Positions 11,689 to 20,962 of a DNA stretch of 64,000 nucleotides are shown here, piece after piece (position 1 is the stretch's first letter; each line of letters opens with the position of its first letter). The stretch covers positions 1 through 64,000 of the forward strand of contig CAMZIL010000002.1 of the NCBI GenBank assembly GCA_947307225.1, in the 5' to 3' direction. The notes beneath the pieces were generated by a model. The model was not told the DNA's origin and did not search any database. It saw only the letters and a list, made by a program, of their open reading frames with translations. Both the position numbers and the translations under genes were made by a program. The stretch comes from an uncultured Candidatus Saccharibacteria bacterium. Lineage in GTDB: Bacteria; Patescibacteriota; Saccharimonadia; Saccharimonadales; Saccharimonadaceae.

Positions 11689-11781
11689 TTGCGATAAAAA
11701 GGGCTTGACATTTGGATAATGCTAGTGCTAAACTGGACCCAAACTAGGTCAAAAATAAAAAATAAAAAAGGAAAAACGAGA

Positions 11782-13632
11782 ATGTCAGAAATACCAAGAC
11801 TCCCAGGAAGCACTGGCGACCCAGAAGGCGGCCAGAGATGGTCAATGGATCCAAATCCAAGGCGCAATGAAATCATTGTTCCTGAAAACCAACCGCAGCA
11901 GCCGGAGAATGTTGAGAATTCCGAGAGCGCGGAAGATAGAGAATCGAAGCGCTTGAACGGCGAAATTGCCAAGAACTATGGTGCTGACATTTTTGCTGCA
12001 GCAAGGCGACTCGGTATGCCTGTTGAGCATTCTCGTGATACCTATAAGTGGTCTAATGAAGACAAGCAACGCTTGCTGGACGAACTCGCAAACTCGGCTG
12101 CGGCTGCAGAAACTACGACATCTACGACAACTCCAGCGCCTGGCGAAGGTGGCACTCCAGCTCCAGCGCCGGCACCTGGTGAAGGTGGCGATGGCGGCAC
12201 TGATACTCCAGAAGGTGATGATGGCGATGGCGGCGACGGTGGCGATGGCGGCACCCCAGTCCCAACTCCTGTACCAGCGCCTGGCGAAGGTGGCACCCCA
12301 GCTCCAGCACCAGCACCTGGTGAAGGTGGCGATGGCGGCGACGGTGGCAATGGTACCCCAGAGGGGGGGACCGGCGCTGGCAATAATGAGAGCGCCTCGA
12401 CTAGCGTAGCTGAGAAGGCAGCAAATAAGAAGAGAAACATAGCTATTGGTGCTGGCGTGCTTGCAGTTGTGTCGCTATTGGCTTTGATCGGAATTGGTGC
12501 TAACCAAAATGCGAAGAAAGAGACTACGGAAACGACGGCTATAACCGAGGAAGAAAACGATGATGACGGCGAAACCGCAGAAGAAAACGAGTCAATCCAC
12601 GACATCTCTACCTATAAGGGTATGTTCGCTAACGAGGCTGGCACGACCTATAACGAAAACAAGACTGGCGACCACGCCTTTGGCGAAGGCCTAGAAACCG
12701 GTGTATCTGAAGACGAGATGAAGGAAGGCCTTGGCGATCGTATGATTCAGCCAGGTCAGCTCGCTGCAACATACTTCTACATGCAAGAAAAATCTACCGA
12801 TCCTAACTTCGGTGTCGATGGCGCAAACTTCTCTAACCCAGATGAGCTTCTTGAGGCAATGGAAGAGGATGGTGATCTCCATCAACGCGTTTATGATTAC
12901 GTCATGGGCGCAATCAAGGGTGGCTCGATGGAAGAAAGTACTGTTAGTGGTATGGTTCATAACTTCTATCTCGATTCGCTATTTGAAACTGGCGATGTCG
13001 ACACGAGTAATGTTGAGGTTGTTGGTTGCGATACGCAAGAAAATGGCACGAAAGTCTATAAGCTCGAAGTTACTTGGACTGATGCGGACGGCAATATTCA
13101 TACTGATACATACACCTTCAAGGAAGCTTGTGGTGGTCAGCCAGTAGATGAATTCGACTTTACGCAGACTGTACGCAAGATCCCTGGCGATCCAGAAGGC
13201 GGCGACGAGAAGGACGAAGACGCTGAGCGCAGAAATGCAGGCGAAGATGCTGACAAGCGCGGTATCGATAACAATGAAACGCCTCCAACTGCCGATCCTC
13301 GCGGAGATGATTCGGACGGTGATGGCGTTGGTGATCTCGATGAGTATAAGCCGGGCGAAGGCAATGATGGATCTACGGGCGGCCAAGATGCTGAAACACC
13401 AAGTGAGGATTCGGACGCTGGCTCAATCGGCGATGTGATTGAAAAAGGTGAAGACACGGATCAGAACGGCGAAGAAAACTACGAGAATCCAGAAGAGCAT
13501 GCGGCCGAAGAAGAGGAACAAAAGAAGGCCGATGACCAGCAAGAGCAGGCTAACGAGCAAGCCGACGACGTTAAGGAAGATATTGATCAGAATGGCGGCA
13601 ACACCGACGTTAACTTCGATGACGTCATATAG
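11782..13632 (+). CDS. Single-pass membrane protein with Pro/Gly repeat region and acidic C-terminal tail
   Basis: PAPGEGGTPAPAPAPGEGGDGG repeats, TM IAIGAGVLAVVSLLALIGIGA, long D/E-rich tail; ATG at 11782. Confidence 0.75.
   Translation: MSEIPRLPGSTGDPEGGQRWSMDPNPRRNEIIVPENQPQQPENVENSESAEDRESKRLNGEIAKNYGADIFAAARRLGMPVEHSRDTYKWSNEDKQRLLDELANSAAAAETTTSTTTPAPGEGGTPAPAPAPGEGGDGGTDTPEGDDGDGGDGGDGGTPVPTPVPAPGEGGTPAPAPAPGEGGDGGDGGNGTPEGGTGAGNNESASTSVAEKAANKKRNIAIGAGVLAVVSLLALIGIGANQNAKKETTETTAITEEENDDDGETAEENESIHDISTYKGMFANEAGTTYNENKTGDHAFGEGLETGVSEDEMKEGLGDRMIQPGQLAATYFYMQEKSTDPNFGVDGANFSNPDELLEAMEEDGDLHQRVYDYVMGAIKGGSMEESTVSGMVHNFYLDSLFETGDVDTSNVEVVGCDTQENGTKVYKLEVTWTDADGNIHTDTYTFKEACGGQPVDEFDFTQTVRKIPGDPEGGDEKDEDAERRNAGEDADKRGIDNNETPPTADPRGDDSDGDGVGDLDEYKPGEGNDGSTGGQDAETPSEDSDAGSIGDVIEKGEDTDQNGEENYENPEEHAAEEEEQKKADDQQEQANEQADDVKEDIDQNGGNTDVNFDDVI
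12127..12375 (+). repeat. Low-complexity repeat encoding PAPGEGG/GDGG units
   Basis: Repeated cc(a/t)gcgcctggcgaaggtggca / cacctggtgaaggtggcgatggcgg units within the ORF. Confidence 0.8.
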
Positions 13633-13677: not shown

Positions 13678-15270
13678 ATGCTAAAACAAACAAATATCAA
13701 ATTTAAACGGAGGTTGACGGTAGCTGGCCTAGCGGCAATAGCGATTGCAGCGCTAATACCGTTCTCCTCTAGCTCGGCATGGGGGCCGGAGAATCGTAAG
13801 ACTTTTACGAATAAAAGTCCTGCAGATTATCCAGTCTTTAACTCGATTACCGACAACGCCGGTGTGGGCGACGAACGCAACTTCGTTCGTATCAAAGAAG
13901 TCGGCACGAGTGGAAAATATGTCGACACGGTCAACGTCACGGCTGGCAAGGAGTATGAGGTTTATATCTACTTCCACAACAATGCCAAGACGAGCCTCAA
14001 CAAGACTGCCGATGGCAAGCTAGGCCCAGGCGTCGCAACTCAGGTGAAAGTATCTACGGGTCTTTCCGCCTGGACTATTAACTCATCCAAGAAGATTAAA
14101 GTTAGTGGCGTGATTTCGTCCTCTAATACTAATCCAGCTTCCGTTTGGGATGAGGCGTACCTTACTACTTCCTCTAAAGACGATATTGTTCTTAAGTATG
14201 TAACTGCTTCTGCAAAGATTCATAACAGTTTCGAGGCAAACAATTCCGTACTTAGCGATAAGTATCTCTTTAGTAGCGAAGGCACATATATTGGCGTGAA
14301 TAAACTAAACGGCTATATTCCTGGCTGTGCAGAATACTCCGGCTATATTACATATCGCATTCGTGCTGATGTAGCAAAATCTACGATTAGCAAGACCGTT
14401 TCAAAAGATGGCAAGAACTTCTATGAAACTGTCGACGCAAAACCTGGCGACACGCTTACTTACAAGGTTGTCTGGAAGAACACTGGTACGCTCGATCTTA
14501 CGAACGTAACTTTCCACGATAAGCTTCCAACTGGCGTTACGCTAGTCAACGGCACTACGATGCTTTACAACAACTCCAATCCAAATGGCGTAAAGATGTC
14601 AGATTCGATTGGTAAAACTGGTTTCAAGACCGGCCTTTATGGCAAAAATACAACTGCGACGATTACTTATAAAGTAACCGTAAACAAAGACGCTGTAGCA
14701 AAGAAAGATTGTAATTCGAAGACTGCATTTACGAATAAAATCTTTGCTGACTACAACGTTGGTTCGACTTCTGGCGTGGGTGAGGTATATGATAGCTCCA
14801 CCATTTATGTAACCCGCGTTTGTGAGCCTGAAAAGAAAGAGCCATGTAAGCCGGACGATAAGGACTGTATCTGTAAAGAGAATCCAAAGGATCCAATTTG
14901 CGAGGAGCCAAAGACTCCATGCAAAGAAGGTGATCCGGAATGTCCTGGTGACACCAAGTGTGATCCAAACGACAAGGAATGTATCTGTACGGAAGATCCG
15001 AAGAACCCAATTTGTGAGGAACCTTGCAAAGAAGGTGATCCGGAATGTCCAGGTGACGACGACGAATGTGACGACGACGACGTCGATTGTATCTGTAAAG
15101 AAGATCCAACCAATCCAATTTGTAATCCGCCAATTCCAAAGACTGGTCCTGGCGAGATTGCCTTGGCAATTGTTGCAGTAGTCTGTATTGCAACTGGCGG
15201 TATCTACTGGTATCGTAGCCAAAAAGACCTTGCGACGATCGAGAAGGGTCTCGACAAGGGTAAAAAATAA
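13678..15270 (+). CDS. Secreted surface protein: DUF11-like repeat domain, Cys-rich stalk, IPKTG sorting-type signal
   Basis: Signal peptide, DUF11-like GDTLTYKVVWKNTGTLDLTNVTFHDKLPTGVTLVNG, repeated CICKE(N/D)PK(D/N)PICEEP, C-terminus IPKTGPGEIALAIVAVVCIATGGIYWYRSQK. Confidence 0.8.
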   Translation: MLKQTNIKFKRRLTVAGLAAIAIAALIPFSSSSAWGPENRKTFTNKSPADYPVFNSITDNAGVGDERNFVRIKEVGTSGKYVDTVNVTAGKEYEVYIYFHNNAKTSLNKTADGKLGPGVATQVKVSTGLSAWTINSSKKIKVSGVISSSNTNPASVWDEAYLTTSSKDDIVLKYVTASAKIHNSFEANNSVLSDKYLFSSEGTYIGVNKLNGYIPGCAEYSGYITYRIRADVAKSTISKTVSKDGKNFYETVDAKPGDTLTYKVVWKNTGTLDLTNVTFHDKLPTGVTLVNGTTMLYNNSNPNGVKMSDSIGKTGFKTGLYGKNTTATITYKVTVNKDAVAKKDCNSKTAFTNKIFADYNVGSTSGVGEVYDSSTIYVTRVCEPEKKEPCKPDDKDCICKENPKDPICEEPKTPCKEGDPECPGDTKCDPNDKECICTEDPKNPICEEPCKEGDPECPGDDDECDDDDVDCICKEDPTNPICNPPIPKTGPGEIALAIVAVVCIATGGIYWYRSQKDLATIEKGLDKGKK

Positions 15271-15696: not shown

Positions 15697-15724
15697 CAAA
15701 AAACTCCCAAAAAGGGAGTTTTTT
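15697..15724 (+). terminator. Intrinsic terminator after rplU
   Basis: AAAAAACTCCCaaaaaGGGAGTTTTTT. Confidence 0.85.
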
Positions 15725-15792
15725 GGTGCTGCTTATGTTATTATATAAGCATAAATAGTAAGGCTTCAGAAGTGAGGCCAGCGGAGGTAAAA

Positions 15793-16356
15793 ATGAGTAA
15801 AAAGAGAAGCGCTGCTGCTGCGTTCATCGTTTTGGGCGTAGTTGTCTTGGGACTTGCTGCTGCTGTTTATGCGAAATACGTTTCGACGATTCAGGCTACG
15901 GGCGAGATTTCAGTCGCGAAATGGGCATTTACGTCCGACAACACTGACGGTGGAACCGTTGAGTGTGTATTAAGCAAGACATACAACGCAGCTACGCTAG
16001 TAGCCGATAAGATTGCGCCTGGTACGTCCGGCAAGTGCCCGATTGTAGTATCGAATGAGAATACTGAAGTTGGCATTCGCTATACGATTACTCCAAGCAC
16101 TGATAGTGCAAAACCAGTACACCTAAAGTTCTATACGGACGAAGAGCACACAACGGAGTTGACTAGCGGCGACTCTATTACTGACACGTTGAGGCCACAG
16201 GAAACCAGCCCCGAAGTGTATGTATATTGGTACTGGCCATATGAGGACGATCCTAGCACGGCCGCATATGATGAGGTCGATACTAATGACGGTGAAACCA
16301 AGACCGACATGACGATTACCTTCGATATTACTGGCACTCAGGTCAAGCCAGAATAA
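15793..16356 (+). CDS. TasA/camelysin-like secreted protein (gene A of surface cluster)
   Basis: Short signal-anchor followed by AVYAKYVSTIQATGEISVAKWAF and C-terminal VYVYWYWPYEDD...YDEVDTNDGE..MTITFDITGTQ, as in TasA/CalY-type proteins. Confidence 0.65.
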   Translation: MSKKRSAAAAFIVLGVVVLGLAAAVYAKYVSTIQATGEISVAKWAFTSDNTDGGTVECVLSKTYNAATLVADKIAPGTSGKCPIVVSNENTEVGIRYTITPSTDSAKPVHLKFYTDEEHTTELTSGDSITDTLRPQETSPEVYVYWYWPYEDDPSTAAYDEVDTNDGETKTDMTITFDITGTQVKPE

Positions 16357-16370
16357 TAAAAATATACTTT

Positions 16371-16442
16371 GTGGAGACTTTTAGTCTCCACATGGACAAT
16401 GAATGAACAAATTGATTGGCCATGCGGAGACTAAAAGAGGAG
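16371..16442 (+). promoter_or_regulatory. Mutually exclusive hairpins preceding the second gene of the surface cluster
   Basis: GTGGAGACT-TTT-AGTCTCCAC (16371-16391) versus CTTTTAGTCTCCaCATGG (16378-16395) pairing with CCATGcGGAGACTAAAAG (16420-16437), abutting SD AGAGGAG. Confidence 0.6.
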
Positions 16443-16444
16443 TA

Positions 16445-17176
16445 ATGAAAGAGCAACAAGACAAAGACAACAAGGGTTTAATTGCGGCCGTAGTCGTATT
16501 AGTGATAACGGTCGGTGTTTTGTTGTGGCTCCTCTTCAAGCCGATGTCCAAACCGGATAAAATCGAGACCGGAAATGTCGACGTTTTTGATATTCGGATT
16601 GGTTGTATTTGCGAGGGCGAGGACTGCGCTAAAGATAAAGACGGCTTTATACCCGATTTGACGCCTAGCAAGAGAGAACGGGGCGAGTACAGGGAAGGAA
16701 AGATTAACGGCGAGACGGACACCGACGTAGATGACGACGGAATTGTTTATGTTGACGATAAGAATGGCTCATATGTCTATCAGAAGAATTTGGCCATTTT
16801 TGAAAACGCTGCGTTTGAATATACGGACAAGATTACGCCTGGCGTATCGAATTCTTATCGTTTCAAGGTTCACAATGAGACGAGCGGCTCGATTCGCTAT
16901 AATATCGTGTTCTCGGAAAAGTCTGAATATGACATCAACATGCTTTACAGACTGAAGCGTGGCGATGATTATGTGGTCGGCAGCGACTCACAGTGGGTGA
17001 GAGCGGCTGAGCTGGCGTCAGCAATGAAGAATTTGTCTAGCGATGGCGTCGATAGTTATACGCTGGATTGGCAATGGCCATATGAGAGTGGTAGGGATGC
17101 GCTAGATACGGAAATTGGCGAAAAGATGACTTCCAAGTACAGCTTGGGCATAAAAATTAACTTCGAGGAAATATAG
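16445..17176 (+). CDS. TasA/camelysin-like membrane-anchored protein (gene B)
   Basis: N-terminal TM, then GNVDVFDIRIG and VHNETSGSIRYNIVFSE; ends YTLDWQWPYESGRDALDTEIGEK, sharing the W.WPYE..D..DT signature with gene A. Confidence 0.6.
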   Translation: MKEQQDKDNKGLIAAVVVLVITVGVLLWLLFKPMSKPDKIETGNVDVFDIRIGCICEGEDCAKDKDGFIPDLTPSKRERGEYREGKINGETDTDVDDDGIVYVDDKNGSYVYQKNLAIFENAAFEYTDKITPGVSNSYRFKVHNETSGSIRYNIVFSEKSEYDINMLYRLKRGDDYVVGSDSQWVRAAELASAMKNLSSDGVDSYTLDWQWPYESGRDALDTEIGEKMTSKYSLGIKINFEEI

Positions 17177-17177
17177 C

Positions 17178-17690
17178 ATGGCGATGACGAAGAAGCGCGT
17201 CGCAATTTGCAAGTATGCAGCTCTTCTAATTTTTATGTCCTGCGCATTGCTAGTGGGGATAAGTGCAGCGAAAATGGCAAGCACTGAAGCCATCGAGAGA
17301 AATGACGAGATTCAAGTGGCAGGTTGGAGCGTGGATGTGAGCACGACTAGCAGTGATAGTATGACGTTGGACGCGGGGGAAGGCGCGCAGACCTATGAGC
17401 TGACTGTGGCGAATAACTCCGACGTCGCTAGCGATTACGTGATAAAGGTATCCAATATACCATCTGGGGTGAAAATCGGTTTGGACATTCAGTCTGATAG
17501 CGACTTGGTAGTGCCAACTGGCGGCGAAGTAGTATTTACTAACACGAGCGGCAGTTTGGGCTATGCGGCACCAGATAATACGAGGTCGCATGTCCTGACT
17601 TTAGTAGCAGAACCAACGGCGAATATTACGCAGAGAGGTGTTAACATGTCGATAGAAGTGCGATTTGCGCAAAAGGATCCAGAGCTATGA
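17178..17690 (+). CDS. TasA/camelysin-like secreted protein (gene C)
   Basis: Signal region GISAAKMASTEAIERNDEIQVAGWSVDVS resembles gene A; beta-rich body; overlaps gene D. Confidence 0.55.
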   Translation: MAMTKKRVAICKYAALLIFMSCALLVGISAAKMASTEAIERNDEIQVAGWSVDVSTTSSDSMTLDAGEGAQTYELTVANNSDVASDYVIKVSNIPSGVKIGLDIQSDSDLVVPTGGEVVFTNTSGSLGYAAPDNTRSHVLTLVAEPTANITQRGVNMSIEVRFAQKDPEL

Positions 17691-19678
17691 GGCGGAAGTT
17701 TGCGTATCTATTGCTAGGGCTTGTAGCCACGACGGCGGTTGGCTGCTTGTGCGCTGACGAGGCGAGTGCAAAGTATGCCGAAAGCAAGAGTTTGTCCTTG
17801 ACGATTAATATCGAGAAGCATTACGAGGTTGAGTTTAGAGCTAACGGCGGTATTGGCTCGATGGCGAACCAACAGTTTACGGCCGGAGTTTCGCAGGCTT
17901 TGACGGCTAATGCATTCACGCAAGAGGGGTATCACTTTATCGGATGGAACCGCGTAGCGACTGGCGGCATGGAGGGCGATTTTTATGAAAACCAAGAGAT
18001 GATCAGTACTGACCTGACGAACATTGGCGGTGGAACCGTGGTTTTGTATGCCCAGTGGGAGAAGAATGCGATGAAGACGGTGTTCGAAATCACGGGCGCG
18101 TGCATCTTTCATGGTTATGATATACAGCAGAATACGGGCGATGGTTATATTACGGGTACAGATTGTACGTCTAACGGCACGAATTGGGCTGATGGCTCAC
18201 ATAAATATATCGATTCCGACATCAAACTCTACGATACGACGAATTATGAGAAAGACTATGAGATTGGTTTCATAATTCAGAGTTATGATCAGGCTCATCA
18301 ATATATTGAGCCGGGCGATTCTGCGAGCCAAGCTACCTTTATGAACTCGAAATACGAGAATGAAGATAGGCATTGGCCGGGTATTGTTATTCGTAAAAGT
18401 GCCGAGAAGATTGAGATTACTCAAACTATCAAAAAAGGCAACACACACGAGAAGAAGACGGGTTCTAAAGCGAGCGCGGATGGGATGAAAGTTGTGATTA
18501 CGAGGGTTGACGGCGTGGTCTATTATTCGTTTAACGATGGCCCGTTTACGGTGTTGCAAGATATGAATGGCACGTCTGACTATTTTGACGTGGATGTATG
18601 GTTTGGCGCCTCCGAAAAGAGTGACGGGACTCCGATGCGCTATATTGATGCTGCATTATCTGATATTTATATTAAGGTTGGCGAGAAGGGGTCGAATAAG
18701 CACGTAGTTAGCTTTGACGCTGGTGGCGTTGTGGCTGATCCGGATGATGTGACGGTTATCTCGACTAGAACAATCGGTAACAATTTGCCTAGTATGCCTG
18801 AATATGAAGATACTGAGGAAGGGCGTTTGTACTTCATCGGTTGGTATACTGGCGCTGACGGCACAGGCGAGAAGGTCACGGAGGATACCGTGATCGACCG
18901 CGACGTTGCGCTTTATGCATTTTGGAATGACGAAAAGATTGTATGTAGCGCAGCGGGCGAGACGGATGACACTTTGCAAGACTGCGTCAATAAGGCTGGC
19001 GCTGGCGATACGGTCACGCTTCTCGATAACATTAGGGAGCAGATAACCGTGGCAAATGGCAAAGAAATCATACTCGATTTGAATGGCCACAAATTGAGTG
19101 ATAACTCAGTGGCGGGCAAACCGGTGATTGAAAACTTCGGTAAATTGACGGTCATAAATGGTACTATCACCTCGACGCTTAGGGCAGGCGTATTGAATAA
19201 TAACTCCACGGGTGAGATGTATATCGGAAGCGATGCTCGTATTATTGCAACTGGCATTCGCCAGGCAATCTACAACAACGGCGGTAGGCTCGAAATTAGT
19301 GGCAATGCATATCTTAGCGCCGTATCGAGTGAACGTGCGACGGTCCATAACTTGGCTGGCGGTAGTTTAGTTATTAAGGGCGGTACGATTATTGCGACGA
19401 AGCAAGAGGCTGTGAAGGTTGACTCCGGCTCGCTCGTGATTGGAACTGAGGATGGAACGGCGCATAATGATACGCCAGTCATTCAGGGCGCAACCTATGG
19501 CGTGACGACTAGCGTGAATATCACGATGTATGACGGTGTTTTGAGAGGCAAAACGGCTGCCATTAACGATACGACTAAGATTGCGGAATGGGAAGACGGA
19601 GCGACGGCGGTTGGCATTGACTCAGTCGTGACCGAGACGATCGATGGCGTCGTTTATGAGGTGATATATTACCAATAG
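17687..19678 (+). CDS. Large secreted protein with two InlB-type B-repeats and C-terminal beta-helix-like repeats (gene D)
   Basis: YEVEFRANGGIGSM...GYHFIGWNRVATGG...LYAQWE and VVSFDAGGVVADPDD...LYFIGWYTGADGTG...LYAFWN; then VINGTITSTL..GVLNNNSTGEMYIGSDARI..GGRLEISGNAYL..GGSLVIKGGTI. Confidence 0.75.
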   Translation: MRRKFAYLLLGLVATTAVGCLCADEASAKYAESKSLSLTINIEKHYEVEFRANGGIGSMANQQFTAGVSQALTANAFTQEGYHFIGWNRVATGGMEGDFYENQEMISTDLTNIGGGTVVLYAQWEKNAMKTVFEITGACIFHGYDIQQNTGDGYITGTDCTSNGTNWADGSHKYIDSDIKLYDTTNYEKDYEIGFIIQSYDQAHQYIEPGDSASQATFMNSKYENEDRHWPGIVIRKSAEKIEITQTIKKGNTHEKKTGSKASADGMKVVITRVDGVVYYSFNDGPFTVLQDMNGTSDYFDVDVWFGASEKSDGTPMRYIDAALSDIYIKVGEKGSNKHVVSFDAGGVVADPDDVTVISTRTIGNNLPSMPEYEDTEEGRLYFIGWYTGADGTGEKVTEDTVIDRDVALYAFWNDEKIVCSAAGETDDTLQDCVNKAGAGDTVTLLDNIREQITVANGKEIILDLNGHKLSDNSVAGKPVIENFGKLTVINGTITSTLRAGVLNNNSTGEMYIGSDARIIATGIRQAIYNNGGRLEISGNAYLSAVSSERATVHNLAGGSLVIKGGTIIATKQEAVKVDSGSLVIGTEDGTAHNDTPVIQGATYGVTTSVNITMYDGVLRGKTAAINDTTKIAEWEDGATAVGIDSVVTETIDGVVYEVIYYQ

Positions 19679-19711: not shown

Positions 19712-20962
19712 ATGAGTGTGGTATTAGGTATTGTTGTTGGTCTATTAATCTTAATGCTCTTAGTGGTGGGGCACGAATTTGGCCATTTCATTGCTGCTAG
19801 GCGTAATGGCGTAGAAGTAGAAGAATTTGGCATTTGTTTCCCGCCGCGCGCGCTTGCTTGGCGCAAGGTGAACGGTAAATGGCGTCGCTTGAAAAAGTCT
19901 GAGTGGAAACGCCCACCTGGTGAGGGCTTGATCATTTCGCTAAACTGGTTGCCGATTGGCGGTTTTTGCCAGATGAAAGGCGAGAGTGATGCGGAACGCT
20001 CGAAGGGTAGTTTTGGCGCGTCGTCATTCTGGTCAAAGACGAAGATTCTCTTTGCTGGCGTGACAATGAACTGGTTGATGGCAATTGTCGTCTTTACGGT
20101 GTTGGCCTGGATCGGCATGCCACATTTTCTAGAGGGGCAATTCGAGATGCCTGGCGATACGCAGACTATCGTTGAGGCGCCGGTTACAATTGGCGAAGTA
20201 AAGGATGGCAGCCCAGCCGACAAGGCGAGACTGCGCGAGGGTGATGTCGTAATGCAAATGCGCTCTCTGGGCTGCTCAGACGGCTCCTGTGAGCTTCCTG
20301 ACGGCGAGAGGCGTATCATTAATACTACGGAAGATTTGCTTTCGTTTGACGAGAAATACGCGGGTGAGACGATTTATATGACCTATCAGCGTGGCGATGA
20401 GATTAGCATGGTCGAAATAAAGCTGAATGGTTCCGATGCGGAGTATATTCTTGGCGCTGGTATATCCGGCAAGGCAATTTATCGCAGCACTTGGAGTGCG
20501 CCGATTGTTGGCTTTATGACAACGGCCCAGATTACGGGCGAGACCTTTAAGGGTGTCGGTCAGTTAATTTGGAATTTGGTCTCGGGCGTGGTCCGTCAGT
20601 TGAACTTCTTTGATCAGAGTGCAAGGGAGAGCGGCGCAGAGGCCGTTAAGGCAGCTGGCGATTCGGTTAGCGGCCCAGTTGGTATTATTGGCGTGCTATT
20701 TCCAAGCGTGCTTTCGAGTGGTATCGGTAATTTACTGTTTTTGACTGGTTTAATTTCGGTCTCGCTAGCAGTAATGAATGTTTTGCCGATTCCGGCACTC
20801 GATGGCGGTCGCTGGCTATTAATCCTTATCTTTAGACTGAGGAAGAAAGAGCTGACGAAAGAGAGAGAAGAAAAGATAGTCGGTAGGGCATTCTTGGCTT
20901 TGCTATTGATTGTGGCGGTAGTGACAGTGCTCGATATCGTAAGGATGATGAGCAATGGTTAA
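19712..20962 (+). CDS. rseP: RseP-like site-2 metalloprotease (M50)
   Basis: VGHEFGHFIAARRNGVEVEEFGICFPPR (HExxH), PDZ-like segment, NVLPIPALDGGRWLL. Confidence 0.9.
   Translation: MSVVLGIVVGLLILMLLVVGHEFGHFIAARRNGVEVEEFGICFPPRALAWRKVNGKWRRLKKSEWKRPPGEGLIISLNWLPIGGFCQMKGESDAERSKGSFGASSFWSKTKILFAGVTMNWLMAIVVFTVLAWIGMPHFLEGQFEMPGDTQTIVEAPVTIGEVKDGSPADKARLREGDVVMQMRSLGCSDGSCELPDGERRIINTTEDLLSFDEKYAGETIYMTYQRGDEISMVEIKLNGSDAEYILGAGISGKAIYRSTWSAPIVGFMTTAQITGETFKGVGQLIWNLVSGVVRQLNFFDQSARESGAEAVKAAGDSVSGPVGIIGVLFPSVLSSGIGNLLFLTGLISVSLAVMNVLPIPALDGGRWLLILIFRLRKKELTKEREEKIVGRAFLALLLIVAVVTVLDIVRMMSNG

Follow-up and report, generated by a model that had tools for sequence, protein, structure and literature searches.

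A four-gene surface operon of a rumen Saccharibacterium as a candidate SipW-associated fibre system distinct from TasA

Which surface structure might be encoded by four consecutive genes for secreted or anchored proteins in a tiny bacterium of the rumen whose life is probably spent attached to other cells? The genes, here called A to D, lie at positions 15793-19678, all on the + strand in the open-reading-frame list, of a 64,000-nucleotide window (the whole stretch of DNA analysed, positions 1 to 64,000 of contig CAMZIL010000002.1, assembly GCA_947307225.1) from an uncultured Candidatus Saccharibacteria bacterium. The likely host-attached life surmised from the letters alone agrees with its membership of the Saccharibacteria, a host-attached group. 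How these bacteria recognise and hold their hosts is poorly understood, the known filaments being type IV pili and a type IV secretion system (T4SS) (PMC12206443). Our reading, to which we give a probability of roughly 0.58, is that A-D form a sortase-independent, SipW-associated, donor-strand-type surface-fibre (pilus-like) operon distinct from TasA. The original prediction, made by a model from the sequence, had named the genes a TasA/camelysin-like surface-fibre cluster; it is partly supported, in that the surface operon is real and co-conserved and its kind was guessed well, while the family was misnamed.

Gene A (15793-16356, 187 amino acids), the proposed major (shaft) subunit, begins with a signal sequence ending VYA-KY that is followed by a beta-rich mature domain. 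Gene B (16445-17176, 243 amino acids; orthologues 60-69% identical), the proposed membrane-anchored base subunit, has an N-terminal transmembrane segment, predicted to stay uncleaved, ahead of an A-related domain. Gene C (17178-17690, 170 amino acids), the proposed minor or adaptor subunit, has a signal sequence ending AKM, and gene D (17687-19678, 663 amino acids), the proposed tip adhesin, one ending AKY, followed by two InlB B-repeats and two further domains without a known family. One nucleotide separates B from C, and C and D overlap by four nucleotides, as expected from the initial description of close or overlapping co-directional genes. An alternative start of B, the upstream in-frame ATG at 16403, falls within a hairpin that does not code for protein, and the translation from it shows no conservation.

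The AK(Y/M) cleavage region that A, C and D had been said to share is invariant across all aligned orthologues (A27-K28-Y29 in A, A31-K32-M33 in C and A28-K29-Y30 in D), the cleavage sites themselves being predicted by eye. B has no such site and keeps a hydrophobic N-terminal helix in the orthologue alignment; judged by its sequence, it looks like a signal anchor that stays uncleaved. Conservation among orthologues also extends to the VA.W strand noted in A (A42, W44) and C (A48, W50), and to the C-terminal W.WPY..D..DT signature noted in A and B. In profile-profile comparison A matches B at 97% and C at 95-98%, with column-permuted nulls at or below 10%; this kinship persists when signal and transmembrane regions are removed (97%), and two unrelated neighbour proteins give only background in the same comparison. 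On these profiles A, B and C belong, in their mature parts, to one protein superfamily, as their proposed mutual relatedness implied. Neither of the libraries searched, Pfam and NCBIfam, contains the A, B or C family, and the orthologues of A and C gave nothing real there. Translations of A-D inspected by eye contain no LPXTG-like C-terminal motif with a transmembrane segment.

The four genes are kept as one block, in the same order, between rplU and an RseP-like gene in 12 of 37 Saccharibacteria genomes of the same genus, some of these 12 being interrupted by contig ends; the co-conservation proposed as a check is thus observed. Block carriers are Candidatus Saccharibacteria metagenome-assembled genomes, and those titles that name a source point to ruminant rumen or omasum. 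More widely, B occurs in 14 of 396 sampled genomes of the class, distributed over two genera of one family, and in the second genus (G170) A-D lie at a different chromosomal site. Searches for B in plasmid, phage and viral collections gave no match. In the tree of B, Saccharibacteria occupy three positions, all of them next to Firmicutes (L175 with L137; L174 with L135 and L136; the window clade with L134); support is starred, but the branches are long and the tree carries a caution about false joins of this sort. Cross-phylum transfer, once or several times and in either direction, is likely on these sequences.

The relatives also bear on the peptidase. A SipW-type peptidase (TIGR02228) is absent from the window operon, as had been stated. 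In Bacilli from water-buffalo rumen (L134) the operon reads B-SipW-C-D; in gut Clostridia (L135, L136) and Bacillales (L137) B is accompanied by SipW-type peptidases, A-like proteins and a large last gene, and A-like genes are duplicated in the Firmicutes loci. Two Saccharibacteria of a second genus have SipW-A-B-SipW-C-D (G233) and A-B-SipW-C'-large gene (G200). SipW thus lies inside the operon in L134, L174 and L175 and adjacent to it in L135-L137, and in L134, G233 and G200 it stands between B and C, the position of the 1-nucleotide gap of the window. Elsewhere in its own genome the organism encodes a SipW-type peptidase (C1:34248-34757; 91.5 bits against a cut-off of 51.85 at G000:C1:34332-34739), as the suggested genome search revealed; it adjoins a protein (L027:5485-6189) that meets both TIGR04090 (BsaA) and TIGR04088 (SipW-cognate). 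An aromatic residue at the second position after the cut (P2') slows LepB, and TasA, a SipW substrate, has one (PMC10269814). At this position, counted from the predicted cut, A has the tyrosine Y29, invariant in relatives of both phyla, D has the invariant Y30, and C has M33. The SipW genes inside the relatives' operons lend support to the idea of a SipW-linked fibre.

Apart from these coding features, the A-B spacer (16371-16438, + strand) holds an RNA element, new here, with two mutually exclusive hairpins, recognised by folding, covariation and a covariance model. Against dinucleotide shuffles the hairpin has z = -8.1. The short hairpin pairs arms 1 and 2 (16371-16391) and the long one arms 2 and 3 (21 base pairs); since arm 2 pairs with either arm 1 or arm 3, the two folds exclude each other. 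Over 14 aligned Saccharibacteria loci the 21-base-pair stem is 95.6% paired, with compensatory change at seven pairs. The covariance model finds one site per genome, in the cluster-bearing genomes and in a remnant locus in G027; a further match, in G029, is weak (E=0.36). It also detects the spacer between A and B in the Bacillales locus L137 (E=4.5e-5), and the shared-arm design recurs in the A-B spacers of L135, L136 and L137, where shuffles reached the shared-arm statistic in 1/120, 0/120 and 0/120 cases, respectively. No Rfam 15 family reaches its gathering score for the spacer. An intrinsic terminator on the + strand was ruled out by the lack of a U-run after the hairpin, so that protection of the A message, or processing after it, is the likeliest role; by either route the hairpin would yield A in excess, and it may set the amount of shaft protein made. 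A precedent for more fibre-subunit message than downstream message is found in Clostridium perfringens, where a terminator after bsaA gives a short sipW-bsaA message besides a longer readthrough sipW-bsaABCRSD mRNA (PMC7395162).

Gene D, the last of the operon, is its largest and most variable gene. Its two Flg_new/InlB B-repeats match PF09479 in two stretches (E=1.2e-14, 54.6 bits against a gathering score of 27), the first at residues 46-111 (17822-18019, + strand) and the second at about residues 338-415 (approximately 18698-18931, + strand), the latter also on the strength of internalin B chains; D matches solved internalin B repeats in the PDB. Its description as a large terminal protein with two InlB B-repeats is hence accurate. 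The beta-helix-like region also ascribed to it is plausible by eye at the C-terminus, but the middle and C-terminal parts match no Pfam family. No C-terminal anchor is seen in D. One genome (G005, L038 1710-3587) encodes a D that apparently lacks the C-terminal beta-helix-like part and repeats an InlB-plus-middle-domain module instead, an architecture that appears to be that of a modular tip.

How could such proteins form a fibre? Fibre assembly is inferred by analogy with TasA, whose fibres assemble through a freed N-terminal donor strand (PMC9674648). B, which its uncleaved N-terminal helix would hold in the membrane with no free N-terminus to donate, would be the fibre base. A would be secreted, cut before K28-Y29 and polymerised into a shaft in which the strand freed at the N-terminus of each copy occupies the groove of the next subunit down. 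C shares this arm and the domain type with A and would serve as a minor adaptor. D also carries the arm, but neither an A-type domain, as far as detected, nor an anchor, and would therefore come last, as a modular tip adhesin with InlB repeats that presumably binds a neighbouring or host cell. The two-state hairpin would act post-transcriptionally, keeping A above B-D. Cleavage was ancestrally probably the task of an in-operon SipW, and in the present organism probably falls to the SipW on another contig or to the general signal peptidase.

Several results weigh against this fibre reading. B and C show no direct profile-profile match, and C resembles A mainly across its N-terminal half. Known fibre proteins gave no sequence match for A-C. 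The predicted models of A and C are of moderate quality (mean predicted local distance difference test score, pLDDT, 63 and 68), and neither has a PDB match at E<=0.001 in Foldseek, with TM-scores near 0.3. RNase III (TIGR02191), a candidate processor of the hairpin, is not found in the organism's own genome, and processing by this enzyme was set aside. Finally, no SipW hit reaches the family cut-off in two genomes that keep A-D, G003 (with an estimated completeness of 100%) and G170 (97%), and a strict SipW requirement is accordingly doubtful. Of the original claim that a SipW-like peptidase is needed and lies outside the window, the location therefore stands and the necessity does not stand firmly. 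A general signal peptidase occurs in every genome tested, G003 included, and may act in these two.

The same sequence evidence would fit a small surface complex without a polymer, in which B anchors a heteromer of A, C and D that displays the adhesin D. Two features favour it: B has a predicted membrane anchor, and no other gene of the four is as large or as variable as D. A set of three beta-rich paralogues, two of which (A and C) have N-terminal arms in common, nevertheless fits a polymer with excess A better than a 1:1 complex, and both the A-like duplicates in the Firmicutes loci and the placement of the hairpin right after A alone favour polymerisation; we consider the heteromer unlikely, if still worth keeping in mind.

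The hairpin could also be a DNA palindrome, such as a recombination site or an insertion scar, rather than an expression element. The sequence is near-palindromic, the covariance model also matches the opposite strand, and in G027 (L110 10440-10702) the hairpin sits between rplU and RseP where the cluster was lost. The + strand nevertheless scores higher, and many G-U pairs are kept in its reading (for example U-G in 9/14 at columns 19/60), while the element is single-copy and always lies between A and B. The closing part of A and the opening codons of B also survive in G027, which makes this locus a deletion remnant of a lost A-D cluster. A palindrome without a role in expression thus seems quite improbable.

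Could A-C instead truly belong to the TasA/CalY (camelysin, M73) family and form a biofilm matrix, as the family name first given to them implies? Two observations point that way: the relatives have a SipW context, and CalY-like proteins encoded next to SipW in this genus align (91%) with the signal region and the beginning of the mature protein in the A family. With the signal removed, however, the match of A to TasA/CalY/BsaA-type profiles of the genus falls to noise (0.2-0.5%), and mature-only profiles of A, B and C are all at null level against them, whereas BsaA-like and CalY-like profiles still match each other at 94%. PF12389 matches neither A, B and C nor 10 orthologues of A and 12 of C at E<=1; TIGR04090 and TIGR04088 match none of A-D, nor A orthologues even at E<=1. 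Searches of PDB sequences with A, C and widened A profiles found no relative. Among the Foldseek hits for A, TasA is absent from the top 50, the model being moderate. We accordingly reject membership of the TasA/CalY family on the strength of the mature-domain profiles, and the biofilm-matrix reading, already disfavoured, is very unlikely. Donor-strand pilus subunits do figure among the top structural hits (for A, CsuA/B and FimG; for C, FimG; E about 1e-3 to 1e-2, low TM-scores), and the C model, itself moderate, has SdrD and the cannula protein CanA among its hits as well. With moderate models and weak matches a donor-strand fold is suggestive only; the low confidence of the N-terminal arms in the A and C models is what a free donor strand would give, and equally a poor model.

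The slot that holds the operon is a hotspot. Its left edge is rplU (ribosomal protein L21; 15385-15696, + strand; 85-97% identity across the genus) and its right edge an RseP/site-2-protease-like gene (19712-20962, + strand), present in 58/61 relatives. A terminator-like hairpin with A/T-rich flanks (15697-15725; strand undefined, reported on the - strand by the pattern scan and inspected in the sequence) separates rplU from the cluster. Other genus members have the slot empty or filled by one large InlB-repeat protein, which could suggest that secreted proteins without kinship came together here by chance in a hotspot for surface genes. Against this, the A-B-C-D order is the same in every carrier, also at the other site in G170, and Firmicutes keep it in part; A, B and C share homology, and each cluster has one RNA element, so that chance grouping is contradicted and extremely unlikely. 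In L103, L104 and L105 a single InlB-repeat protein of 710-1242 amino acids fills the slot in place of A-D. Further upstream in the window lie a 530-amino-acid secreted DUF11-repeat protein with a PKTG-transmembrane end resembling a cell-wall anchor (13678-15270), conserved ahead of rplU in most genus members, and, adjoining it and conserved with it in many genomes, a 637-amino-acid protein with a Pro/Gly-rich repetitive region, one transmembrane segment and no clear family (11719-13632). The separate SipW locus of the organism (L027 4786-8150, on G000:C1) encodes an InlB-repeat protein and further secreted proteins besides the TIGR04090 BsaA-type one, and many genus members have SipW loci with CalY-like or BsaA-like proteins. 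A second kind of SipW-like protein of the genus, with a long extra part (382-amino-acid reading frames, about 385 amino acids), stands beside a small secreted protein in L083, L091 and L095.

If the fibre reading is true, a separate operon with its own tip adhesin and an ancestry common with gut Firmicutes would add a candidate organelle for binding hosts or neighbours, and the spacer RNA would offer a testable case of subunit stoichiometry set within an operon. More tentatively, and with less confidence than the fibre itself commands, A-D might represent a new class of SipW-associated tip-adhesin fibres exchanged between episymbiotic Saccharibacteria and gut Firmicutes, in which a cross-phylum two-state A-B hairpin sets the shaft-to-base ratio. 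Among the papers covered by our search, none joins Saccharibacteria or Patescibacteria with TasA or SipW fibres, and Nanosynbacter lyticus is said to have genes for no filaments other than two type IV pili and one of T4SS type (PMC12206443).

Among known systems, the T4P-1 and T4P-2 pili of N. lyticus resemble the proposed fibre as surface filaments of an episymbiont for host contact, but A-D match no type IV pilin family. The chaperone-usher pilins CsuA/B and FimG are, weakly, among the closest solved folds for A (both) and C (FimG); no chaperone or usher gene lies beside A-D, however, the operons of their relatives are linked to signal peptidases, and the phyla differ. Internalin B B-repeat proteins (PF09479, List_Bact_rpt) have repeats of the kind found twice in D, whereas D has neither a leucine-rich repeat match nor a C-terminal anchor and is the last gene of a subunit operon. 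The C. perfringens BsaA/SipW system (TIGR04090) can be likened to A-D in its sipW operon, its major polymerising and minor subunits and its excess of first-subunit message (PMC7395162). It differs in that A is not a TIGR04090 protein, the true one residing with SipW elsewhere in the genome (C1), and in that the element in the A-B spacer, a hairpin with two states, lacks the U-run that marks an intrinsic terminator. With Bacillus subtilis TasA/TapA/SipW and CalY/camelysin (PF12389, M73), finally, A-D have in common a SipW-type peptidase in the operons of their relatives, an aromatic residue two after the predicted cut, a secreted beta-rich subunit with a free N-terminal arm and no visible sortase motif. 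Unlike them, A-D have no matching sequence or detectable fold and no SipW in the window operon, and they form a four-part operon with a membrane-anchored paralogue, B, and an InlB-repeat protein, D, as the proposed tip.

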